Below, in pieces: positions 6,552 through 63,729 of a DNA stretch of 64,000 nt. Origin of the DNA: Lophium mytilinum (lineage: Eukaryota; Ascomycota; Dothideomycetes; Mytilinidiales; Mytilinidiaceae); contig MU004186.1 in the NCBI GenBank assembly GCA_010093605.1, forward strand, positions 1,716,616-1,780,615. The letters run 5' to 3'. Each line of letters begins with the position of its first letter. Position 1 is the first letter of the stretch. The translations under genes were made by a program, and so were the position numbers. The notes beneath the pieces were generated by a model that had not been told where the DNA came from, searched no databases, and worked only from the letters and a program-made list of their open reading frames with translations.

Positions 6552-9496
6552 TTAGCCCAGTCCTTCTCGACCACCATCACTCCCTTCTCCATCTGCCTCA
6601 TCTCCGAGCAAGCCCCTCTCCTCAGCGCTACCTTCTTGCCTCAGAACACCTTGCCCGGCCCCGGTCTCGCCTTTCTCATCCGCCCCATTCAGGATGAACC
6701 ATACATCCTTCTTCGTCAATAGGCCTTTTAGCGTGCCCCGATCAACAAAGAGAACGTAGCGAAGTCCTAACTTCTGAAACATGCTAACAGTGAGTTGAAA
6801 GCTCGCCTTCGCATTGAGAGTGATTGGTGTATGGTCCATCCACGGTCTGAGATCGAGGCTTGTCGTAGGATCCGAAAGCGGTTGGTGGGAAAAATACGCT
6901 TCAGTGTCGGCTGTGAGGTTTCGAGAATCTGACAAAGCGGTAGAAAGAGCGAACGAAAGCTCGGCACGAGATATATAACCTAGGAGAATAGCATCCCGAG
7001 GGTTGTCGATGACGGGGAAGCCACGGAAGGCGTGAGCGCTCAAAAGATTTCGGAGGCTTTGGATGGTGTGGCCAGTGGCTGTGATGACCATCAAATCCTC
7101 GATTCGTGTCATGACCTGAGATGCGGGTACATCGGGGATGGACGAGCTGTTGTCGTCCCGATTGTCCAAGAAGGGATAGCCGTTGAGGTGAATCCATGAT
7201 TCGTATATCCCTCTTGGGGATATCGCGTCGCCGACCCATTTGCTTATCATAACCGCAATCATAATGGGGAGGACGTAGGTGAGAGCGCCTGTGAGCTCGA
7301 ACATGATGACTACGATAGACACAGTCATGCGAGTTGCGCCGCCAAGCGCGGACGCAGCACCGATGATAGCGTAAGTGCCGGCCGTAACGCAAGGGACGTC
7401 AGGCTCGCACGATGCGAACGCGATGAAGTTGGGATGATTTGCTTGCCAGACTTCGACAATGAGACCAATGGCTCGTCCGTAAAGAGCTCCGATAGCCATC
7501 GATGGAAGAATGATACCCGCAGGTATTTGAAGGCCAAATGTGATGCTTGCCAACACAAATCCTAGCAGGGCAGAGATAAGAAGAAGCGCGACGACGCCAG
7601 TATTTGCTTTCCCACTTTTGCAAAGACCCAACGTGTCGTCTGTCAGATCCACGCATTCGGCGAACAAAAAGTAGACCAGCTCAGAAGCTTGTGCGCGCAT
7701 GAACTTGATCGGAAAATTTATGAGTGCTGTAATCAAGGTGACAACTGCCACTTCTACGATCGGACCTTTGAAGATCGGATTCGTCTTTCGCCATTCGGCA
7801 ATCCGCATGTTGAGCTTGATGAACAAGCCGCCATAGAGTCCTCCGAGGATGCCTAAGAGGGCAAAAGGTATCATTTCAAACCCGTGCCATCCAGAGTGGT
7901 ACGTGACTTGGTACAAGACTAGCTTGCCAGATCTGAATGGATTGAAGGCCTGAAGAGTGACAGCCGCCACCATGGCGCAAACGAAGCTTTGCCACATGGT
8001 TTTATCTGGAAAATAATATGACAGTTGCTATTTAAAGTTAGCAGTGTCAAGATCAAAGTCAAAAATGATTGCATACCTCGAGACTGAATAAAACACCACC
8101 GATAGGAGAACCAAACGCCACTGATATACCTGCCGCAGCCGCGGCGGATAAGATTTCTCGCTTTCGTGCTAGGGAGATCATCAGCTAGATCCTGGATATG
8201 GACGGAGAAGCACGTACCCTCATTACTATTGACGTTGCTGAATAACTTCATAAAAAGATTTGCACAGCAGCAAGCAACATGGACGAGGGGGCCCTCTTTG
8301 CCTAACCACAGACCAGATGCAACCGCAAGACACTGCACATTTTGTCAATAAACAATCCTACAATAAGAGCAACACTACTTACCAGACCTAGCGATTTGAC
8401 AATCAAAGTCCATGTTCCCAAGAAACGCCTGATGACGAAGCCTCCCAAAACGGTCTTTATTTCGGGTATACCGCTATGCTTTGAGTAGACAGCAAAATTC
8501 AAAACCAGTACACTAGCACAAACAGCAAAAAGAACCTAGTTCGATCAGATTCGCTCATGAAAGTACTGGGTCAATAAACATACCGAAAATATCACAAAGA
8601 AAATGTACTCGACGATCCAACTTCCGCCAATCGAGTGTACACCAAGAGCACTGCTCCAACTATGCCAATCTTGACATTGTGAAAACTCTGGAGGTCTGTT
8701 AGTTTGTATTACGCACCTCACTCTCCTAACTCACCATTATATCCCCAACAGCAGAACCCTTTGTTCAGATAAAACTTCCCGTCCCCATTGACATTGCTGC
8801 AATAACCTGTCTTCAAATCACCTAACCAATCACTAGCCACATCGATGAAAGCAGCTATAGCCCCACTTGCTATCCCAGCGGCTATGAGTATAAGCCATAT
8901 CTGACTAGCGTCTGCTAGCTGACGGATGTATCCAAGTATACCGGGAGAGTTCGAGTATAAAAAGCGCAGTCGTTGTCGTTCCTTGGCATACTCAAATATC
9001 CAGTCGATGGCTGTGAGATCGTCGTACCCAACGCGGCGGCCAGGGCCCTCGACATACCAGTCTAATCCTGTGGCATCTTTTGTATCCTGGATCTGCCCGC
9101 CAGCATCCCCGGGGCCATCTAAGTAGTTCAATATGCGCTCGGTGGACTCATTGCGGGTATCGATGTCTCTTAAGCGTGACACTGGAGTCCTTGGTAATGG
9201 TGAATTTTGCCGACTATTGCCTGAGAGTGGAGAGGAGAGGAATCGCGGTATGGAGAAGGGAGAGCTTGCGGTTGCTTTCTGCTTGCGCTTGAAGGATAAT
9301 CTACATTGAAAAGCATTAGCTCAGCAACACGGTAGAGATACCGCAAGATGGACCTCTCTGGAAGCGAATGCTCTAGTGGATCGGAAGAAAGCAGGGTCTC
9401 TTCGTTATCGCTGATGTCGTCCTCGATGGTAGGCTGCCTGCTGGAGGAGGGTGCGGCCCGCCCTTGGTTGGAATGGTTCGATGACGAGCTGGACAT
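6552..9496 (-). CDS. CLC-family chloride channel/transporter with two CBS domains
   Basis: Exons 9496-9342, 9300-8735, 8687-8584, 8535-8383, 8332-8218, 8168-8077 and 8027-6552 give 886 aa. The cytosolic N-terminus is followed by the fungal CLC block [20 protein letters not shown] signature motifs are present: HSGIPEIK (Cl- site), GKEGPLVH with gating glutamate E339, [16 protein letters not shown], and [21 protein letters not shown]. Two CBS domains occupy roughly residues 695-755 and 800-850. The family relation is to CLC-3/4/5 and yeast Gef1, which act in Golgi, endosomal and vacuolar membranes. The residue at the proton-glutamate position is Gln396 (see findings). The Ser/Pro-rich N-terminus may be phosphorylated. 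Divergent from the D-amino-acid oxidase. Confidence 0.95.
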
Positions 9497-16544: not shown

Positions 16545-19500
16545 ATGGCCGGTAGGCCTCCTGGTCAACACGCCTCGGGCAATAATGACGACCTCCTACT
16601 CGATTTTGGCGACCCGCAACCTACATACTACTCGGGCCAGCGGGCTCCAGCGAATGATGAAGACCTTCTACGAAACTACGACATAAACGACTCCGACACG
16701 CACCAGCCCGCTCCTCAACACCGCCCCTCAGAATCTTACGATGACTTTGTTGGAGGCAGACCAGCCGCGGGTCTACCAGGAGGGCCAGGCACCCTGCCTG
16801 TTGGGTCGACCCCGTACGCTGCGGGAGGAAACAGGCTGTATTCACAGACCTCAGATCTCCACAATTATCAACGGTACTCAGACGTCGACGACGTTGATCA
16901 CGATGATCACTCAGTCTCCGGCTACTACGCCTCTGGAGGTGCCACCGACGAACCCACGCCGGGCCTTGCGCGACATGCTTCGGCGCCGAAAAATAGGAAT
17001 AGCATAATGAGTCTGGGAGGAGGCCTCATGGGTCGGGCCAAACACATGCTTGGACGGGGTCCAGAGTACTCAGAGATGGATCTACCTTTGACGGAAGCTG
17101 GCGCTCGGGAGTCACGAATAGACAGTGGAGGGCTTGATGGTGCAAAGTACCCTCCACCTAAGAGGCGCAGCTCTGGAAAGTTCAAGTTTGGTTTTGGACG
17201 TGGAAAGCCAGACCCTTCGACGTTGGGACCACGCTTGATACATCTGAACAATCCACCAGCAAATGCGACTAACAAGTACGTCGATAATCACATATCGACC
17301 ACCAAGTACAACATCGCTACCTTCCTACCGAAATTCCTATACGAGCAGTTCTCAAAATACGCCAACCTTTTCTTCTTATTTACCGCTATTTTGCAGCAAA
17401 TTCCTGGTATCTCGCCTACCAAAAGATACACCACCATTGTTCCCCTCGGAATTGTGCTTCTAGTATCCGCAGTCAAGGAATACATAGAGGATTTTCGCCG
17501 CAAGACATCGGACAAATCTTTGAACAATGCCAAGGCGCGGGTATTGAAAGGATCAAGCTTTGAGGACACCCGATGGATCAATGTTGCAGTTGGAGATATC
17601 GTGCGTGTAGAGTCCGAGGAGCCGTTCCCTGCCGATTTGGTGCTTTTAGCCTCATCAGAGCCCGAGGGACTCTGCTACATTGAGACTGCCAACCTGGACG
17701 GAGAGACCAATCTTAAGATCAAGCAAGCTATTCCTGAGACGGCCGATTTGGTGAGCCCTGCGGAGCTCAGCAGGTTGGGCGGGAAAATCCGATCGGAGCA
17801 GCCCAACAGCAGTCTCTACACCTACGAGGCGACACTGACGATTCAAGCTGGTGGAGGAGAAAAAGAATTGCCCTTGGCACCAGATCAGCTCCTGTTACGA
17901 GGTGCTACTCTCCGGAACACGCCTTGGATCCACGGAGCTGTTGTTTTTACCGGCCACGAGACAAAGCTGATGAGGAACGCCACGGCTACACCGATTAAGA
18001 AGACAAACGTGGAACATACAGTCAATTACCAGATTCTCATGCTTGGAGGTATTTTGATCACCCTCAGTCTGATTAGTTCCTTCGGCGATTTGGCGATACG
18101 ACTGAAGGAAAGCGGCCAGCTAGGATACCTCGAGTACGACGGTTTCAACGCTGCGAAGCAGTTCTTCTCTGACATCTTCACATACTGGGTGCTCTACTCC
18201 AATCTGGTTCCAATTTCGCTTTTCGTCACCATTGAAATTGTCAAATATTACCAGGCTTCCCTCATCGATTCCGATCTCGACATCTATTACGACAAAACTG
18301 ACACTCCAGCCAATTGTCGGACGTCGTCGTTAGTTGAAGAGCTAGGGCAGATTGAATACATTTTCTCCGATAAGACAGGCACTCTGACATGCAACATGAT
18401 GGAGTTCAAACAGTCCTCTATAGCTGGGATCCAGTACGCTGACGAAATCCCCGAAGACCGGAGAGCTACCATCGAGGATGGCGTAGAAGTTGGCATCCAT
18501 GACTTCAAGAGATTGGCAGAAAATCTCAAGAACCACTCTTCGGGCGACATCATTGACCATTTCCTGACTCTGCTAGCAACCTGTCATACCGTTATTCCCG
18601 AAAGAGGTGATGAGAAGTCGGGCGCCATAAAATATCAGTCAGCGTCTCCTGACGAAGGTGCCCTAGTTGAGGGTGCTGTTCTCCTAGGGTACAAGTTCAT
18701 TGCCCGCAAGCCTCGTGCAGTCACTATCCTCGTGGATGGTCGCGAGCTCGAGTATGAGCTTTTGGCAGTCTGCGAATTTAACTCAACTAGGAAGCGGATG
18801 TCAACTATCTTCCGTTGCCCAGATGGCAAGATCAGATGCTACTGCAAAGGCGCCGATACTGTTATCTTAGAGCGTTTAGCTGCAGACAACAATCCGTACG
18901 TGGAGACGACTCTCCAACATCTCGAAGAATACGCCTCTGAAGGTCTCCGAACACTCTGTTTATCAATGCGCGAAATTCCCGAGCACGAATACCAAGAGTG
19001 GCGGCGCGTTTACGATACCGCTCAAACGACTGTCAGCGGAAATCGAGCTGAGGAAGTCGATAAGGCTGCCGAGCTCATCGAGCATGACCTTACTCTCCTC
19101 GGGGCAACTGCTATCGAAGACAAGTTGCAAGACGGTGTTCCCGACACTATTCACACTCTTCAAGAGGCCGGTATCAAAGTTTGGGTTTTGACCGGCGATC
19201 GCCAAGAAACCGCGATCAACATTGGCATGAGTTGCAAGCTGATCAGTGAAGACATGACTCTCTTGATCGTCAATGAAGATAACGCGGAAGCCACCAGAGA
19301 CAACCTCTCAAAGAAACTCAATGCCATCAGAAGTCAACAATCAGGGGCCATGGAAAAGGATGTGCTTGCGCTAATCATTGATGGCAAGTCACTTACTTTT
19401 GCCCTAGAGAGAGACATGGAAAAGATGTTCTTGGATCTTGCCGTAATGTGTAAGGCCGTGATTTGCTGGTAAGTGATGCGATAGTAATTTGAATCTACCT

Positions 19501-27254: not shown

Positions 27255-29019
27255 ATGTCTCTCACAATACCGAACGCTCCGAATGCGGGCTTGTTCAAGC
27301 CGGGCTATCAAAAGTACCGTCCCCTAAATTTACCCAGCCCCTCCATGTGGTGCGTAGCTAAACAATACCCCACAGCTACGACTCCGAAGATGGCGCCGTT
27401 ATTCGCAATATCGAGGCCTGCAGAACGATTGCACAGACTGTCCAAACCTCACTAGGGCCGTACGGTTGCAACAAGATTGTCATAAACCACTTGCAGAAGA
27501 TGATCCTGACCTCGGACGCGGCGACGATACTACGGGAGCTCGAGGTGATGCACCCGGCGGCGAAACTGCTCGTAATGGCGAGCCAGCAGCAAGATGCGGA
27601 GATGGGCGATGCCACAAACATGGTCATTGTGTTTGCGGGAGAGCTGATGAAGAAGGCGGAAGAGCTGATCAGGATGGGTTTGAAGACTAGTGATATCGTG
27701 CAAGGGTACGAGAGGGCACAAGAGGAGGCTCTGAAGCAGTTGGAAGGTACGGTTTGATTCTGGCTTCTACACGTGACGGTATCGAGGTCTAACAAATGGT
27801 GACAGATCTCGTTGTTGACAAGGTCGAGGACATAAGATCACAAGAAGAGCTCAGCAAAGCTATCCGAACTGTTGTGGCCGCGAAGCAGTCCGGCAACGAA
27901 GACTTCCTTGCCGACCTGGTGGCCGAAGCAATCCTCGCAGTTCTCCCAAAGAACCCCATAAATTTCAACGTGGACAATGTGCGGGTGGTCAAGATTATGG
28001 GTGGCAGCCTCGAGCAGAGCAGGGTCGTCAAGGGTATGGTCTTCGCTCGCGAGCCTGAAGGCAGCATCAAGAAGGCACAGAGAGCGAAGGTGGGAGTATA
28101 CTCATGTCCGATCGACATCAGCCAGACGGAGACCAAGGGAACTGTTCTTTTGCACAACGCCAAGGAGATGCTGGACTTCACCACGGGCGAGGAGCATCAA
28201 ATCGAGAACATCATCAAGGAACTCCACGATTCCGGCCTCCGCGTCGTCGTTGCCGGGTCCACCATTGGCGAACTCGCCATGCACTACCTCAACCGCTACA
28301 ACATCCTCGTCATCAAGATCCTCTCCAAATTCGAACTTCGCAGACTCTGCCGTGTTGTTGGCGCTACACCGCTTGCTCGACTAGGGGCTCCTATGCCGGA
28401 TGAAATGGGCACAGTCGATGTCGTTGAGACATTAGAGATTGGCGGTGACCGCGTCACCGTCTTCCGACAAGAGAACGAAACCACCAGGACCGCAACCCTC
28501 GTGCTCCGCGGCGCTACTCAGAACCACCTCGACGATGTCGAGCGCGCAGTTGACGACGGTGTCAACGTCGTGAAAGCCATCACTCGCGATCCCCGTCTCG
28601 TTCCAGGAGCCGGCGCCACCGAAATGCAGCTCATCGAGCGCATCACCAACGTAGCCGAGAAGACCCCTGGTCTTTCTCAATACTCCATCAAGAAGTTTGG
28701 CGAAGCTTTCGAAGTCATCCCCCGCACGTTAGCAGAAAGCGCCGGCCTCGATGCGACCGAGGTGCTAGCCAGATTGTACACGGCACATGCCGCTCACAAA
28801 GGCGCGTCGATGGGTATCGATATTGAGAACGAAGACAAGACGGGCACCCTCGATGCCACGGAGGAGGGCATTTTGGACCTTTACATTACGAAGAGCTGGG
28901 CAATCAAGCTGGCGACCGAAGCGGCCAGGACAGTGCTGAGCGTAGATCAGATCATTGTGGCACGGCAAGCGGGAGGCCCTAAAATGCCCCAGAACAACCC
29001 CAACTGGGATGAGGACTGA
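27255..29019 (+). CDS. cct8: T-complex protein 1 subunit theta (CCT8)
   Basis: Exons 27255-27313, 27376-27746 and 27806-29019 give 547 aa, the usual CCT8 length. The group II chaperonin signatures are TSLGPYGCNK (ATP site), the theta form DAEMGDATNMVIVFAGELM, and GGDRVTVFRQENETTRTATLVLRG in pieces. VPGAGATEMQLI corresponds to the conserved GGGA-type motif. It is one of eight subunits of the cytosolic TRiC/CCT ring that folds actin, tubulin and other substrates with ATP. The start is fixed by the theta-family N-terminus MSLTIPNAPNAGLFK. Confidence 0.97.
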
Positions 29020-32734: not shown

Positions 32735-34351
32735 ATGCTCGCTACCTCGAGAACCGCTGTGCGCCGAGCTGCCTCGAAGCAGTACTCGCTCAAGAATGGG
32801 GCAAGAGCGGTGTCGGCGTGGTCTAGTGTTCCCCAGGGACCTCCTGTGAGTGCAGCACTGCAATTGCTATACACTGATGCTAATGACGATTGTAGGATGT
32901 ACGTATCCTCTCACAAGTCTGACCTGAGCTTCTACTCACCACAGCTCTGCGTCATAGGCGATTCTTGGTTAGTATCATGGCTTTATTTTTTGTGGCACAC
33001 TGAATTTTATTAACATGCTCCAGGTATCACCGAAGCATTCAAGGCCGACAGCAACCCAGAGAAGATCAACTTGGGTACCGTGCCCCGCAAACTCGACGTG
33101 ATGATGCAGAGGGGACACAACTGACAGCGGCAGGCGTTGGTGCATACCGCGATGACAAGGGCAAGCCATTCGTCCTGCCTTCGGTGCGGACAGCGGAGAA
33201 GAAGATTGTCGACTCCTCACTGGACAAGGAGTACGCAGGCATCACCGGTGTCCCAGCATTCGCAAAGGCTGCGGCCATCCTCGCATACGGACCCGACTCT
33301 GCAGCCATCAAGGAGGACCGCGTGGCCATCACGCAGTCCATTTCCGGTACTGGAGCTCTCCGGATAGGTGGTGCGTTCCTCGAGCGCTTCTACCCTGGCT
33401 CGAAGACCATCTACATCCCGAATCCCAGCTGGGCCAACCACACTGCTGTCTTCAAGGACTCGGGGCTGAAGGTGGAGAAGTACCGCTACTACAACAAGGA
33501 CACCATTGGCCTCGACTACGATGGTCTGCTTGCCGACATCAAGGCCATGCCAAAGGGCAGCATCATCCTCCTCCACGCCTGCGCCCACAACCCCACAGGC
33601 GTTGACCCCACCGACGAGCAATGGGTGGCCATTGCAGAGGCCGTGAAGGAGGGCGACCACTTCCCGTTCTTCGACATGGCCTACCAAGGCTTCGCCAGCG
33701 GAGACACCAACAAGGACGCATTTGCCCTAAGACACTTCATCAAGGAAGGTCTCCGACCCATTCTCTCGCAGAGTTTTGCGAAGAATATGGTAAGTGTGCA
33801 GCAGGACGTGACTTGTGCATTGACTGACCTCGAAACAGGGCTTGTATGGCGAGCGTGTCGGAGCTTTCTCAGTTGTGTGTGAGTCTGCCGAGGAGAAGAA
33901 GCGAGTAGATTCCCAGCTTAAGATTCTCGTGCGACCACTCTACTCCAACCCACCGGTGCACGGCGCGCGCATCGCGTCTTCCATCTTGAATGACGAGGCG
34001 CTGAACAAGCAATGGCTGGGCGAGGTCAAGGACATGGCGGACCGCATCATCACGATGCGCGCGCTGCTGAAGGAGAACCTCGAGAAGCTGGGGAGCAAGC
34101 GCGACTGGAGTCACATCACGTCGCAGATTGGCATGTTCGCATTCACGGGACTGACGCCCGAGCAGATGGATGTGCTCGCCAAAGAGGTAAGCTTCCTGAT
34201 CTACAATGCTTAGCACAACCGATATAGAGAAGAAGCTGACACGCGCCAGCACTCGGTCTATGCCACTCGGGACGGAAGAATCTCCGTAGCGGGCATCACG
34301 AGCGGAAACGTCAAGCGCTTGGCGGAGGCAATCTACAAGGTAACAGGCTGA
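32735..34351 (+). CDS. Aspartate aminotransferase, mitochondrial
   Basis: Exons 32735-32845, 32896-32898, 32958-32967, 33024-33074, 33134-33789, 33839-34186 and 34250-34351 give 426 aa. The N-terminus ([20 protein letters not shown]) is a mitochondrial presequence. Family motifs are [39 protein letters not shown], the PLP lysine in SFAKN (K275) and RISVAGI near the end. It interconverts aspartate/2-oxoglutarate and oxaloacetate/glutamate in the malate-aspartate shuttle. Exon 2 is only 3 nt (GAT, Asp38) and exon 3 only 10 nt; both are needed to give the conserved PPDAILG sequence (see findings). Confidence 0.95.
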
Positions 34352-37274: not shown

Positions 37275-38349
37275 GAGCCGCCGAAGCTGTGGCGGATGTG
37301 CATTTCTTAGGGGCGACACGAGATTGATGGACAGCTCTACATTCTTGCGGCAGAGCTCTATGGGCTGAGCGGGGCAGCGGAGAGCTTGGATATGGATACC
37401 TGCATGGGGAGTTGTCTACACTGGTGGGTTTTCGGTATCTCATAGGGACGAGACTTGCGGTTTCAGAGGGGATGCTGCATAGCTGGTGCAGGAATCACGG
37501 TTCATATGTATGCAGCCAAGCGCTTCTTACGGCCGCTGCTGCACATACTACCCTAGCTCTACTTCTATGGCACTCCTCTTGACAAAGCTCTGTCCATAAT
37601 GCCAATGCACATTTGAAATGATCACATATGTTCAGTATTTATGTTTGGGACCCACGCCACGTTCTGCCCCGCATGCGGCCCCAGCAGCACGACGTTGAAA
37701 GAAGAGTATCGAGGCTAAGCCAGTTCCTTGTCTACGAGCTCTCCGGCCCTGCAAGCGTTATGAGGCTCTGCTCATCGCGGGCTCGGAGACCGTTCCGTAG
37801 TGCAGCCTGCGATGCTGGTACATCTGGGAAGTTTCCCATGCTTGGGATCGATGAGGTCACTGGTCGCGCACAGACGTTTATAAAATGTCTGTGCGTGAGT
37901 TAGGCAAGGCTTAATTGAACCAACATCGAACGCTTAGGTAACCACGTCTGATGCTCAACACCGCCACATTTTGGATCAAACAACCTTCACACGAGGACTG
38001 TACAGCTGAAATCCGTCTTTTTCTGGTAAGTTTCTTGTCTGGCTTCCCATCAAGCACTTAATTCATACGCTTAGCAGGGTCCAGTCATACTTCTTCTCAA
38101 TTTCAGCCCATGCGTTTTCCTCCCTTAGCTGTAAGCACACAAATTTCCAAACCGAGTGTTCTTCGAGCAAGATTCCTCTACTTTCAGTCTCCTCCTGTAT
38201 TTGTCCTTTCGTCGGTAGCAGGCAGCCTACCTCACTCTCGCGTCTGCGTCTGCTCTTTCATCAGCCGTTTCTGCATCCCCTCGGTAGCCCTCAGTCCATT
38301 CTCCGACCACCAGACTATCAGCGGTAAAAATCACTTCTCTGCCGCTACG
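37275..38349. other. Intergenic region (1.1 kb)
   Basis: No supported coding region. The frame of the next gene is open from 38110, but its upstream part (Phe/Ser/Cys-rich) looks like translated CT-rich 5' UTR. Confidence 0.4.
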
Positions 38350-39390
38350 ATGCCAGGTCGTAAAGCCAAAGCCCCAAACAACTTCTGCGATCCCAAGGCT
38401 GACGATGTTCCGGCGTCGACGTCTTCATCGATTACCCCTATTCCATCAAAATCAAATCCCGAGAGCTCGAATGCTACGCCTAACTCCAACCCGACTTCAT
38501 CCCAATTTACATCCAAAGCCGCAAAGCCCGGGGCCAGACCACCCCTAACCCACTTCCTCTGTTTCCCTCTCGTAACTCCTGCGTCACGGCCCCAACTTCA
38601 AGAAACGCTAGCGAGGTTCAAAGAGGATGTCTGCGCGACCGAAAACGTGCCTGAGAAAGCAATCAGACCGCTAGGCACGCTACACCTCACGCTCGGCGTC
38701 ATGAGCCTAGACGAGGAAAGCTTGGAACGAGCAATAGCCATGCTTCAAAGCCTAAACATAGCGGAACTCCTAAACACAACTAGCGCCGAAACCACCACAC
38801 CCTCAGCCGCCCATCCAACCCCATCAGACCCCAAAGAAACCCCAAATACCGCCACAAAAGCATCCCTCGAAACCGCCTTCGCAAGTAGCGATATCTCAGC
38901 CACCACATCCGCTTGCTCGAGCGGTCAAACTGGCGCCACCGCACCAACCACCCTACCTGGGCCTCTCGTCATCTCCCTCCAAGGCCTCCACTCCATGCAT
39001 CCGCCCGCTCGCACGTCTATCCTCTACGCGGCCCCCGAAGACCCGACTGGGCGGCTCTACCCCGCTGCCACCAAGCTTCGCGACCTCTTCACGCAAGCGG
39101 GCCTGATGGTGCCGGATGACCGGCCACTGAAGCTGCATGCCACGATCATCAACACCATTTACGCGAAAGCAAGCAAGGGGGGGAGGGGCGCGGGACACGG
39201 GGCGAACGCAAAGGCGTTGTTGAGGTTAGATGCGCAGGAGATGGTCGAGAGGTATAGGGGCTTCGTGTGGGCCGAGGGGGTAAGGGTGGAAAGGGTAGCG
39301 ATTTGTAAGATGGGGGCTAAGAAGGTGGTAGATGCGGGGGGTGTAGTGGTGAGGGAGGAGTATGAGGAGGTTGCGGGGTTGGAGGTGTGA
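38350..39390 (+). CDS. 2H-phosphoesterase-like protein (AKAP7/ASCC1 NLS-domain family)
   Basis: 346 aa, single exon. I start at MPGRKAKAPNNFCD, which is basic and family-like, rather than at the upstream in-frame ATG at 38110. Two H-x-T motifs, LHLTLGVMS and LKLHATIINT, are the paired catalytic motifs of the 2H phosphoesterase fold. They are preceded by THFLCFPLVT and a helix as in the AKAP7 NLS-like domain. A Ser/Thr/Pro-rich insert of about 70 residues separates the halves. Relatives act on cyclic phosphate or RNA ends or bind AMP; the role in fungi is not known. Confidence 0.82.
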   Translation: MPGRKAKAPNNFCDPKADDVPASTSSSITPIPSKSNPESSNATPNSNPTSSQFTSKAAKPGARPPLTHFLCFPLVTPASRPQLQETLARFKEDVCATENVPEKAIRPLGTLHLTLGVMSLDEESLERAIAMLQSLNIAELLNTTSAETTTPSAAHPTPSDPKETPNTATKASLETAFASSDISATTSACSSGQTGATAPTTLPGPLVISLQGLHSMHPPARTSILYAAPEDPTGRLYPAATKLRDLFTQAGLMVPDDRPLKLHATIINTIYAKASKGGRGAGHGANAKALLRLDAQEMVERYRGFVWAEGVRVERVAICKMGAKKVVDAGGVVVREEYEEVAGLEV

Positions 39391-56340: not shown

Positions 56341-58740
56341 TCACGCGCCAACCCCCAAGGCGCCCCTCCTAGGGCCCACGAAACCTCTCCGTTGCCTACC
56401 AGTCCTACCTCTACCCAGCCAATTGTACTTCAGCTCTTTCGTGAGGCGTTCCATTTTAGCTTGAGATTCATCTCCACTCTGTACGCTGGCTAGCACACTG
56501 ACGCATTGCAGCATCCTGCCAACAATCTCCGTCACCTTTGCAGAATCCATAGGCTGTGGTGGCGGTGGCAATGGCTGCGGCGCAGGAGAATGCGTTGACT
56601 GCGCTGAGAAAGAACCTGCTGAGGTATTCGAAGTTGCTCGTGAGCGAGAAGAGGGGAATGAGGTTGAGGATGCCGTGGATTCAAGTAGCCCAGAAGAGTT
56701 GTATGAGCTCATAGGACCATTCGCTCCATCGGAACCAGAAGTAGCTGTTCCAGGACGGAAGTCTGGGATAGGATTGGGGCTTTCGAGTCCTGCGTTCAGA
56801 TTCTCCAGGGACAATCGTGAAAATATGGCCATAAGAGTATCGTTGCGAGGAAGGACTACCGTGTCGCGGAAGGTGAGAAGAATGATTCTTCGCACATCCA
56901 AGCCTTCTCCTAACGTAGGGATGTTTTTATTGGCCGTCGACATATCGCTGTCTGGCATGGCTGTACCCCAAAAATCTGCTGCCGCCGGAGCAGTCATGAG
57001 TGGCCCTCGACCTTTGAACTCCAGGTCCAGCGGGAGTAGAACGGCTTGAAGGAACGGTAATATGGTGGTGAAAACAACGAGCCACATCTCGACCAAGTGC
57101 GGAATGAGGCGGTCATCCGGAATATGCCGAAGTGTTTGATCTAATGATGAAAATCCAGTCTCTAATAGCTCGCCAAGGTCTTCGATAAGAACTGTTGGTG
57201 CGCGCTTTTGAATGCATCTCCTGATGTGCACGGATACTAGAGCGTTGAAGTCTTCAATAGGCGGTCGTGGATCCTCGCCTTCGAATATAAGTAATAGCCG
57301 AGCTTTGAGCAGTGGCCAAGCGTCGTCTGGTGACATTCCTGGAATACCAAATGCGGCACCCAAAGTACTCATATCGCTTAAGTACCCTCCAAGGGCAGTT
57401 CCAGGAGAGGGCCCTCCGATCGACAAAGCGTTGCCAGGAGAGCTGCTTATGGGCCACTCAGAGCGCTCTGTGCTGAAGGACTGGTTTCTTTCCCTATATG
57501 GAGCTTCTAGCTCTTTCAAATATGGCGCTAAGGAAGCCACCTTCTCTTCCTTTTTCTTTTGCCTGAGTGCTCTTCCGCCATGTCTCAGATCAAGACCGCT
57601 TGCGAAGGAGCTTGAGTGCCCTGGTGACGCAGGGGCCGCAAATGAATATAGTGGCTGGGGCGCGTTTGGATCCGTCGGCCTCGAATTACTTGAAGCGGAC
57701 GATAAAGGTAGATGATGGTCGTCTTTATCCTTCAGCTTATTCTTTTGTCGTGACAGAAAGTGGTGCTTATGCTTCTCCTTTTCCTTCTCTCTCTCTGGTT
57801 GGAATGTCGTTGATCTTTCTAGTGGAACCAAAGTTGAAGTAGAAGCGTTTGCGGACGAGTAGATTGAGCTTGCGCCGGACATATTCGAGTCTACGAGACT
57901 GGTGGTGGATTGATTCATCATCAGTCGGTTCAGTGCAGTTGTGCTATGCATACCTATTTTATTCGGCGAGGGAAGCGCGGGGTGCTTCTTATCGAAGTCC
58001 TTGTCCTTGACGATGCCGATGCTCTTCGGCTTGGAGAACAGCTTCATCTTCGACTTTGACTTGTCTGGCTTCTGCATGTACATCTGTTGGTCCTGCGCTG
58101 CCGGCCTTGGCGATCCGTGCTCTGGCGGCAGGCCCGGAGAGTGCATAGGGCTTCGAGGGAATGCGACGTTCGCAGCTGTCGTTGCGGCCATCCTATGTCC
58201 CCCTACGAGGCCGTTCTGATATGTCACGCCGTTGGTCGCAAACGTCATCTTCGGCACTGGCGGCGGGGAAGCGGGCTGGCGCTTTCCCGTCGGCTGGCCA
58301 TTTCCTCCCGGGTCTGGTATTGTGGTAGAGCGCTTCCGCATGTGCTGGGGATTCTGGACATGCATGGCTGCTTGGGCCGCGATCTGGGAGGCCGTGAGGT
58401 GGTTCGTGTTCGACATGGTGGGCGTGGAGGAGAGGGTGGGCTCGAAGTAGCCCTGCGATCGCTGGCGGGGCCGATGGCCAAAGTGTGCAGGAATGGGCGA
58501 CTTCTGTTCCACGACGGATGTGTTGCTGTGGTTGCGCAGAGGGAGGTCCCGCGCGGGGAGGGGGTCCCGCGACGGCCGCGAGAAGTTGGGGCCTGAGGTG
58601 TCCAATAGCGACGGCGGCACTGGCGATCTGGAATCGATGCGCGGAGGCAATGGCGATAGGCGCTGCGTGGCCTGCGAGTCCTCCGAGTCGTCGTCGTCGC
58701 TGCTGGGCGTGACCACTGGCCGCGGAGGTGAGGGTGGCAT
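56341..58740 (-). CDS. HbrB/Bit61-like TORC2 subunit
   Basis: Single exon, 799 aa. The N-terminal 430 residues are Ser/Pro-rich and disordered, with basic patches (KHKHHFLSRQKNKLKDKD). The HbrB domain, about residues 460-660, contains PDDAWPLLKARLLLIFEGED, FNALVSVHIRRCIQKRAP, a helix ending LGELLETG, and LVEMWLVVFTTILPFLQAVL followed by LDLEFKG and RRIILLTFRDTVVLP. HbrB proteins are the fungal counterparts of Bit61 and human PRR5 (Protor). They bind Avo3/Rictor in TOR complex 2, which controls polarity and sphingolipid signalling; hbrB was named for a hyperbranching phenotype. Confidence 0.92.
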   Translation of the reverse strand: MPPSPPRPVVTPSSDDDDSEDSQATQRLSPLPPRIDSRSPVPPSLLDTSGPNFSRPSRDPLPARDLPLRNHSNTSVVEQKSPIPAHFGHRPRQRSQGYFEPTLSSTPTMSNTNHLTASQIAAQAAMHVQNPQHMRKRSTTIPDPGGNGQPTGKRQPASPPPVPKMTFATNGVTYQNGLVGGHRMAATTAANVAFPRSPMHSPGLPPEHGSPRPAAQDQQMYMQKPDKSKSKMKLFSKPKSIGIVKDKDFDKKHPALPSPNKIGMHSTTALNRLMMNQSTTSLVDSNMSGASSIYSSANASTSTLVPLERSTTFQPEREKEKEKHKHHFLSRQKNKLKDKDDHHLPLSSASSNSRPTDPNAPQPLYSFAAPASPGHSSSFASGLDLRHGGRALRQKKKEEKVASLAPYLKELEAPYRERNQSFSTERSEWPISSSPGNALSIGGPSPGTALGGYLSDMSTLGAAFGIPGMSPDDAWPLLKARLLLIFEGEDPRPPIEDFNALVSVHIRRCIQKRAPTVLIEDLGELLETGFSSLDQTLRHIPDDRLIPHLVEMWLVVFTTILPFLQAVLLPLDLEFKGRGPLMTAPAAADFWGTAMPDSDMSTANKNIPTLGEGLDVRRIILLTFRDTVVLPRNDTLMAIFSRLSLENLNAGLESPNPIPDFRPGTATSGSDGANGPMSSYNSSGLLESTASSTSFPSSRSRATSNTSAGSFSAQSTHSPAPQPLPPPPQPMDSAKVTEIVGRMLQCVSVLASVQSGDESQAKMERLTKELKYNWLGRGRTGRQRRGFVGPRRGALGVGA

Positions 58741-61206: not shown

Positions 61207-63729
61207 CTACTGCGCTCCGATCTCTTCTTCGGCCCAGCCGGGGAGGCCGCCGTCGCCCTGGATCGCGAGACCGTAGCCGCCGTTGCCGCTGCCGAAACCA
61301 CCGATGCCGGAACTCAGGCTGCCAAAAGCGTTTTGTTGCTGTTGTTGCTGCTGGGCGCCTTGAGATTGCTGCAGGGGCTGGGCGAATGGTCCTTGAGAAA
61401 ACACAGGCAAACTCACCGCACGCGCGTGTTGAGCCCGGGCGTTGAGGTTTGATGGTGCTAGGAGACCGCCAACGGTGGTGGAGCCATTGCCGTTCGACGA
61501 AGCACCATTCACGAGGCTGAAACTGGAGGTGCTGTTGTGGGCTGTGTGGGATGGATGTTGTGGTGGCCCAGAGTTCATGTCAGCTCCGTAGAACGCAGCC
61601 TGCTGAGAGGCGAACGCCTGTTGCTGTTGCTGCTGTTGTTGTTGGAGGTTGACTTGTTCTTGCTGTACCTGCTGTTGCTGGTTCTGTTGCGCTTGTTGGA
61701 GATACATCATCAAGGGGTTGTTACCGCCGGTGTTCAGGATGTTCGCGGGCGCGGAACCTTGCATTCCCTGGTATTGGCCGTTCGAGCTCGCACCAGCCGA
61801 TCCTGGGGCTCCAGAGCCAGTCGGTGAGACCGAAGGTCCAGTTTGGCTTCGGGTAGGCTGGAGTCCGTTGATTGGAGATGGTGATTGCATACCATCGTGG
61901 CTTCCAGCCTGCTGGTTCTGTTGGTTCTGGTTGGCATTGATCTGTCGCGGCGGGTTTCCGCATCGATCTTTGCCGAAGTTGACCTTGAACCTCTTGTACT
62001 CCTCGCGTCCACGGACAGCCTCGATCGCCTTGATCGCGTTGGCGATGTTGGTGAAGTTGACGAATGCACAGCTCTTCTCGCGCAGGGCGTTCACAAGCTC
62101 GATTTCGCCGTACTCGGAGAAGTCCTGCCTTAAGCGCTCCTCACTCCAGGATTCGTCCAGATTGCCGATGTACACGTTCCGGGAAGCGCCACCACTGACG
62201 GCCAGAGCGATTGCAGGAGGCAGAGCACCGGAGTGTTTGCCCCATCCAATCTTCAGACGACGGTTGTGGATCATCAAGCCTTGAAGGTTGCTTAGAGCGT
62301 AGAATGAAGCTGCTGATGTCGGGTCGATGAATGTGACGAAGCAGATATGCTTATCCGGAATGTAGCGAATATGGTGCAAAAGACCCCCACGGACTACGTT
62401 GCAGATTTCCTCAATAGTCGTCTCGGGATGGATGTTTCCAAGATACACGGTCCGGTTGCCCAGGTTGTTCACTCCACCAGCAGAGGTTGCAACGGCAGCC
62501 GCCGCTACAGACTGTTGTGCAAGCGCGTTCGAGATCAGGTCCCGGTCGGCACCGTTCAACACGTGCGCGTATCCTGGGGCAATTCCAAGGTACTGCGCAG
62601 CGTTCTGCTGCTGTGTCTTCGAAACATACGCGCATCTATCCTTGCCGTAGTAAACACGTCGCGGGGCTTGCCACTTCGGCTCTTGTGGTAGTTGCGCAAC
62701 AGCCTTGATAGCATTGCCGATGGACAGGAAATGGACAAATCCGATGGCCTTCTCCCGTACAATCTTGACGGTATCGATAGGGCCAAATTTACCCAGGTCC
62801 TCACGGAGCTCGTCCTCGCTTACGTCCTCCGGCAGATTTCCAAGGTAGACGTTGCGCGACGCACCAGACTGCTGCACGGCTAGGGCAACAGAGGTGGGCA
62901 CCTGGGAGGGCTTACCCCAACCAATCTTGATATCCTGAGCTCTGATGGACAACTTTTTCAAGATTGCATCAGAGTGGAAGTGCGTTGCAGAGCTACTGTC
63001 CAAGAAGGATATGAATGCGCAGTTCTTGTCCGGGAGCAGCCTCACAGACTCAATCTGCCCACTTCGAACATGACCAAGTATTTCCTCCGCAGATGTCTCG
63101 GGAGGAATGTTGCCAAGATAAACAGTGCGACTGGTTCCAGAAACTAATCCAGGGGCCATGTGCATCTGTCCTCCGAATCCCATCTGTTGACCACCCATGC
63201 CAAACCCAGTTGTTGGTGATTGTGGTCCTCCATAGAACTGCGGCGCGTTCATTCCAGTCGGCGATACCAGGTTCTGGTAGAGCTGGGGTGAAAGAGGTTG
63301 ATGCATCTGCATAGGACTACCCATCTGGTTCTGCTGGTTCTGTTGTTGCTGCGAGTTCTGGTTCTGACCGGTAAAATTCGAAAAGCCTTGGAACTGCGGT
63401 GAAGCGAAGGCAGACGGAGAACCAGGCTGGAACGGGCTACCCAGGAGAAGCTGCGAAGGAAGTAGTGGAGTGAAGTTCATGTCAAACGCGGTGCCAGGTG
63501 TTTGCATGTCGTTTCCGTTTTGGTTGTTTTGCCCTAATCGTCCTGTGTTGATGCTGGGGATGTTGGATCGCTCAGGGTGTCGGTCCGAGTAGCCTCCCAG
63601 GGATGGCTGGTTTGTGTGGAATGCACCGTGGGAGAAGCCCGTATGGCTGCCGTTCACGGAGTGCTTGGAGAAGCTGGTCTGTAGGCGGGGGCCGCTGGGC
63701 CCGGTCGGGGTCGAGTCTTGATGCTGCAT
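61207..63729 (-). CDS. Four-RRM RNA-binding protein (Nrd1/Mrn1 family)
   Basis: Single exon, 840 aa. A Gln/Asn/Met-rich N-terminus precedes four RRMs near residues 198-270, 290-365, 425-500 and 516-590. Each begins with an RNP2 of type TVYLGNIPP or NVYIGNLDE; RNP1-type strands are CAFISFLD, GFVHFLS, CFVTFID and CAFVNFT. The C-terminus is Gln-rich (QQQQVQQEQVNLQQQQQQQQ). Architecture and order match S. pombe Nrd1 and S. cerevisiae Mrn1, RNA-binding proteins acting in differentiation and stress granules. The repeated IKIGWGK/LKIGWGK after RRM1 and RRM3, and the YYGKDRC/NFGKDRC endings of RRM2 and RRM4, show a duplicated two-RRM unit. Confidence 0.93.
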   Translation of the reverse strand: MQHQDSTPTGPSGPRLQTSFSKHSVNGSHTGFSHGAFHTNQPSLGGYSDRHPERSNIPSINTGRLGQNNQNGNDMQTPGTAFDMNFTPLLPSQLLLGSPFQPGSPSAFASPQFQGFSNFTGQNQNSQQQQNQQNQMGSPMQMHQPLSPQLYQNLVSPTGMNAPQFYGGPQSPTTGFGMGGQQMGFGGQMHMAPGLVSGTSRTVYLGNIPPETSAEEILGHVRSGQIESVRLLPDKNCAFISFLDSSSATHFHSDAILKKLSIRAQDIKIGWGKPSQVPTSVALAVQQSGASRNVYLGNLPEDVSEDELREDLGKFGPIDTVKIVREKAIGFVHFLSIGNAIKAVAQLPQEPKWQAPRRVYYGKDRCAYVSKTQQQNAAQYLGIAPGYAHVLNGADRDLISNALAQQSVAAAAVATSAGGVNNLGNRTVYLGNIHPETTIEEICNVVRGGLLHHIRYIPDKHICFVTFIDPTSAASFYALSNLQGLMIHNRRLKIGWGKHSGALPPAIALAVSGGASRNVYIGNLDESWSEERLRQDFSEYGEIELVNALREKSCAFVNFTNIANAIKAIEAVRGREEYKRFKVNFGKDRCGNPPRQINANQNQQNQQAGSHDGMQSPSPINGLQPTRSQTGPSVSPTGSGAPGSAGASSNGQYQGMQGSAPANILNTGGNNPLMMYLQQAQQNQQQQVQQEQVNLQQQQQQQQQAFASQQAAFYGADMNSGPPQHPSHTAHNSTSSFSLVNGASSNGNGSTTVGGLLAPSNLNARAQHARAVSLPVFSQGPFAQPLQQSQGAQQQQQQQNAFGSLSSGIGGFGSGNGGYGLAIQGDGGLPGWAEEEIGAQ

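Follow-up and report, generated by a model that had tools for sequence, protein, structure and literature searches.

Aspartate aminotransferase locus and its predicted micro-exons

In the window, i.e., the complete analyzed stretch of 64,000 nucleotides, a gene for a mitochondrial-type aspartate aminotransferase (AAT) can be deduced on the plus strand (32735-34351). The gene model consists of seven exons and encodes a product of 426 residues which is intact throughout and, judged by eye, Arg-rich at its N-terminus. Introns 1 to 6 have lengths of 50, 59, 56, 59, 49, and 63 bp, respectively. The features are:

32735..32845, plus strand: exon 1, encoding MLATSR...VPQGPP and ending with GGACCTCCT in phase 0 (translation and alignment)
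32846..32895, plus strand: intron 1, 50 bp, donor GTGAGT, acceptor TGTAG
32896..32898, plus strand: exon 2, predicted 3-nt micro-exon GAT encoding Asp38 (only enumerated GT-AG chain giving PPDAILG; Asp in seven displayed homologues)
32899..32957, plus strand: intron 2, 59 bp, donor GTACGT, acceptor CATAG
32958..32967, plus strand: exon 3, predicted 10-nt micro-exon GCGATTCTTG encoding A-I-L and the first base of a Gly codon (gene model and chain enumeration)
32968..33023, plus strand: intron 3, 56 bp, donor GTTAGT, acceptor CTCCAG
33024..33074, plus strand: exon 4, starting with GTATCACC and encoding the remainder of this Gly, 16 residues and the first base of the next Gly
33075..33133, plus strand: intron 4, 59 bp, atypical donor GTACCG
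33134..33789, plus strand: exon 5 (gene model and protein search)
33839..34186, plus strand: exon 6 (gene model and protein search)
34250..34351, plus strand: exon 7, with the TGA stop codon at 34349-34351 (sequence, gene model, and protein search)

A preliminary description of this DNA had already proposed an aspartate aminotransferase, and this identity is borne out by the comparison of the whole product with the PDB. There, 81 chains were matched, the best 60 of which were considered, with five alignments inspected. The solved mitochondrial AAT 3hlm_A aligns with residues 27-425 without net gap (E 4.9e-169), i.e., the homology is full-length. In addition, the product scores 305.2 bits with Pfam PF00155 (cut-off 19.7), and its best NCBIfam model is NF006719 (473.2 bits, cut-off 377), which is named for an aromatic amino acid transaminase subfamily. 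In the genome of 43.2 Mb on 24 contigs, which includes the window, the gene was found once by protein search. Four of the six matches, a count representing a lower bound, are pieces of the gene itself, and the remaining two belong to another AAT gene, located on contig C19 (50 and 45% identity). A Pfam scan of 10 open frames of the window left three without a match, while matches outside the AAT gene were obtained for frames at 27796-29016 (plus strand, Cpn60_TCP1), 38110-39387 (plus strand, AKAP7_NLS), 16545-19469 (plus strand, phospholipid-translocating P-type ATPase), 6552-7994 (minus strand, voltage-gated chloride channel), 56341-58737 (minus strand, HbrB), and 61207-63726 (minus strand, RRM).

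The coordinates and letters which the preliminary description gives for GAT and for the adjoining exon of 10 nt agree to the base, and the canonical splice signals proposed there can be read directly from the DNA. Intron 1 contains a branch-like TGCTAAT whose A, placed by eye, is found at 32883, 12 nt before the intron end. Two branch-like sites, TACTCAC (32933-32939) and CTGAC (32919-32923), are present in intron 2, which also shows AGs ending at 32944 and 32957, the former being a competing acceptor. The A of TACTCAC lies 19 nt before the intron end and, likewise by eye, is separated by a mere 6 nt from the end of the AG at 32944, a spacing that might account for the latter being passed over; CTGAC, on the other hand, suits this wrong AG better. 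Use of the AG at 32944 would give a frameshifted transcript and might be a source of unproductive mRNA. Among the six donors of the gene, GTACCG of intron 4 (33075-33080) is the weakest in a rough matrix. As the annotation-free intron training sets are small (27, 26, and 48) and capped in length by design, site-strength percentiles are rough and were not relied on.

Instead of two ordinary introns around a micro-exon, the interval might hold a stwintron or a U12 intron. Stwintrons have been described in filamentous fungi (e.g., PMC6616335), and intron 2 includes a string resembling a U12 donor, beginning at 32903. However, with the patterns used, no internal intron removal within 32840-33024 rebuilds a donor or an acceptor, leaving neither a donor-type nor an acceptor-type stwintron candidate in this range, and the string at 32903 is not accompanied by a U12 branch site. 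This reading is therefore considered highly improbable. The same holds for the possibility that the interval was misassembled or contains miscalled bases. While the sequence comes from a single assembly, a 211-bp stretch matches the genome once, at the window itself, and the product is intact over all 426 residues, so that an error appears hardly credible. Moreover, a recent introner-like origin was dismissed, as a genome search that ignores simple repeats and highly frequent words gave no match of the 211-bp stretch other than the stretch itself.

Reading frame and alternative splicing chains

In the modelled transcripts, skipping of GAT keeps the frame and solely removes Asp38, confirming the earlier statement that only the Asp of PPDAILG would be lost. 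In contrast to this, skipping of the 10-nt exon shifts the frame, and a frameshift or an early stop also results when both micro-exons are skipped, when intron 1, 2, or 3 is retained, or when the AG at 32944 is used. For a systematic comparison, splicing chains with at most three introns were enumerated from 32800 to the anchor ITEAF, each intron having a GT donor, an AG acceptor and a length of 35 nt or more. Just one out of 72 open GT-AG chains yields the family block PPDAILG, and this chain proceeds via the 3-nt exon, as had been predicted. Canonical splice sites border GAT on both sides, and the conserved motif depends on its inclusion. When GC donors are allowed, the number of open chains increases to 656, but DAILG is still obtained from the same single chain. 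A GC donor at 32852 or 32855 gives four further chains that arrive at ILG but carry two or three additional residues; GAT is included in two of these chains and absent from the other two.

Otherwise, PP and ILG can be joined by GT-AG splicing in one way only, via a single 112-nt intron (32846-32957), resulting in PPAILG and loss of Asp38. Accordingly, GAT might be nothing but a chance sequence inside this intron, and the enzyme of this species might simply do without the Asp. This chain is open, the frame is kept and the remaining protein is unchanged, but the residue given up is present in all seven relatives whose residues were displayed. The frequency of usable signals by chance and the typical intron lengths also bear on this reading and were analyzed as follows.

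Chance expectation and intron lengths

The 112-bp interval was subjected to 20,000 dinucleotide shuffles with the first 6 and last 12 bases fixed. A usable AG/GAY/GT leaving both introns at 40 nt or more appeared in just 30 of these, and when YAG and GTRNGT were additionally demanded, in 2 of 20,000. Not one shuffle (0/20,000) equalled or exceeded the real sequence in both site scores. In a second approach, 264 kb (the window and 20 stretches of 10 kb) were scanned on both strands, together with eight Markov replicates, for two introns of the pattern GTDNGT...CTNAY...YAG, each 44-75 nt long and separated by 0-15 nt. With this strict pattern, the place described here was the only one found, versus 0.5 per Markov replicate over all 16 spacings, and GAY at spacing 3 was absent in all eight replicates. 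With a looser branch site, 8 tandem pairs were found versus 3.5 expected, and with no branch rule 33 versus 27.1, including 4 versus 0.62 at spacing 3. Since tandem signals thus occur near chance rates under loose criteria, the splice signals are weak evidence by themselves, and the argument for the exon depends on a codon being required at precisely this position. A scan with open-frame flanks again retrieved only this place, albeit with the acceptors 32944 and 32972; 32957 was missed because the next exon has only 10 nt.

Intron lengths were estimated from the same 264 kb in an annotation-free manner, considering candidates of up to 300 nt and keeping the shortest candidate per cluster. Among the 43 candidate introns obtained, 2 are shorter than 46 nt, 21 fall into the range of 46-60 nt, one has 69 nt, none has 70-100 nt and 19 have 101-299 nt. 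Consequently, lengths of 50 and 59 nt are typical, whereas 112 nt lies outside the cluster. The 19 long candidates are evenly spread and probably represent false chains, but an intron of 112 nt is possible by length. Taken together with the rarity of a usable AG/GAY/GT among the shuffles and the conservation of the residue, the interpretation of GAT as intronic chance sequence is regarded as quite improbable.

Asp38 in the protein family

An N-terminal 57-mer was compared with the PDB, considering the best 60 of 76 matches, many of which are variants of one bacterial enzyme. With Asp included, query and chain spans are of equal length in 60 of the 60 matches listed, and the best score is 78.7 bits compared to 70.6 bits without it. 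The Asp-less 57-mer needs a one-residue gap in the single alignment displayed. Likewise, the score with NF006719 drops from 473.2 to 465.9 bits when Asp38 is omitted. Among the relatives with displayed residues, all seven of which possess the Asp, the block PPDPILG is found in the five PDB chains 3hlm, 8skr, 5ax8, 9yb6, and 1ama, the last presumably being the chicken mitochondrial enzyme. Four of these chains are named mitochondrial, and as they are near-identical in the block, the five are not independent. The corresponding block is PPDALFG in 1yaa, which we take to be the enzyme from baker's yeast, and PEDPLFG in the C19 paralogue, where the Asp codon GAC (L006 1522-1524) is located inside an unbroken exon. 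The Asp is not universal, as vertebrate cytosolic AAT has a different residue at that position. None of 17 pattern stretches from the viral collection encodes a relative, and of 42 such stretches from the prokaryote collection just one does, in a Colwellia record; a fungal AAT orthologue was not found in either collection.

Proposed splicing of the micro-exons

What can be shown directly is the anatomy of the DNA, a parse that is unique among the enumerated GT-AG chains, and a product that fits the protein family, and from these observations we conclude that the predicted 3-nt exon is very probably real. With the same high confidence, the Asp38 codon is considered to be a free-standing 3-nt exon placed between two ordinary short U2-type introns, with the following three and one-third codons being carried by the 10-nt exon. 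Introns 1 to 3 would each be recognized across themselves, i.e., by intron definition, which would allow for a tiny exon without the need for an exon-bridging complex. As factors would not be able to occupy both sides of 3 nt simultaneously, the introns would have to be removed successively. In the simplest order, intron 1 would be spliced first, joining GAT to exon 1 to form a normal exon that retains an intact donor (GAT/GTACGT), and removal of intron 2 and then intron 3 would follow. Because the Asp is conserved, GAT is expected to be usually included, while occasional skipping, using the 112 nt as one intron, would give an in-frame product lacking Asp38. An unusual RNA fold bringing the exons together was not detected (z of 0.59, with 134 of 200 shuffles folding at least as well).

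For the AAT of S. pombe, domain closure has been linked to the N-terminal arm and helix alpha1 (PMC6715241). An enzyme lacking Asp38 would therefore probably be impaired. The same structural link, however, might also speak for a regulated cassette exon, providing AAT with and without Asp38 and thereby tuning active-site closure. Such a cassette would fit an exon of 3 nt which keeps the frame both ways, and fungal micro-exons that are switch-like (PMC11121469) or, at 3 bp, alternatively spliced (PMC10197012) are on record. Against this, a housekeeping enzyme, canonical splice sites and the ordinary fold (z of 0.59) give no sequence sign of regulation, and the regulated cassette is deemed unlikely, bearing in mind that it is compatible with a real exon and overlaps in this respect with the interpretation favored here. 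In a broader formulation, GAT would be either a conditionally skipped one-codon exon switching AAT between forms with and without Asp38, or part of a recursive splicing process that obligatorily proceeds from 5' to 3'. In the former case, Asp38 would adjoin the arm and helix closing the active site, and in the latter, GAT/GTACGT would serve as a near-recursive site. This broader alternative is considered rather unlikely.

Returning to the favored interpretation of a usually included micro-exon, confirmation by transcripts would establish a 3-nt exon in a housekeeping gene with a 10-nt exon directly after it, and thus a compact natural substrate for studying how intron definition handles exons too small for two-sided binding. 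In that case, automatic fungal gene models would be prone to error at this place, with one conserved residue being silently deleted.

Comparison with known ultra-small exons

In our literature search, a published report of the AAT pair of 3-nt and 10-nt exons was not found, and a search directed at Dothideomycetes gave no micro-exon term among the matches listed. Micro-exons of 3 bp in Tuber melanosporum were reportedly described by Iotti et al. 2012. The preliminary description had placed the 3-nt exon close to the smallest known, which is a fair statement, but exons of 1 nt have been published for Arabidopsis (PMC4674806) and Fusarium (PMC12940212) and exons of 3 bp for Tuber (PMC10197012). 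Hence, the AAT exon is no size record but a case of a rare, yet known kind of gene structure. Before the constitutive 1-nt exon of Arabidopsis APC11 was described, the smallest known exons had 6 nt when constitutive and 3 nt when alternatively spliced, according to PMC4674806. Like the AAT exon in its expected usual inclusion, APC11 represents a constitutive ultra-small exon, though from a plant and RNA-verified. Two adjacent micro-exons, as in the AAT gene, are known from rice, where exons of 5 and 12 nt have been reported (PMC8831610), again in a plant and RNA-verified. One codon making up an exon is also found in Drosophila homothorax, where micro-exon 8 comprises 3 bp (PMC7392893).

Among fungi, exons as small as 6 bp occur in P450 genes of Phanerochaete (PMC1184071). 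According to PMC11121469, functional micro-exons in filamentous fungi had not been described before that of Xlr2 from Trichoderma virens, which resembles the AAT case by its position in a conserved domain, but has 20 nt and is glucose-dependent. The 3-bp micro-exons in NLR-type genes of Tuber melanosporum (PMC10197012, PMC4986451) are codon-sized and from an ascomycete as well. However, these are alternatively spliced and diversify receptors, whereas the AAT exon encodes a conserved Asp of a housekeeping enzyme and is expected to be usually included. Another fungal gene with an ultra-small exon inside a conserved motif is CYP621A from Fusarium, whose 1-nt exon is supported by RNA reads and was missed by most gene models (PMC12940212, 2026). 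There, skipping breaks the frame, and the evidence comprises transcript reads and orthologues, in contrast to the 3-nt AAT exon predicted from DNA; unlike CYP621A, the AAT gene has a second micro-exon directly following the first.
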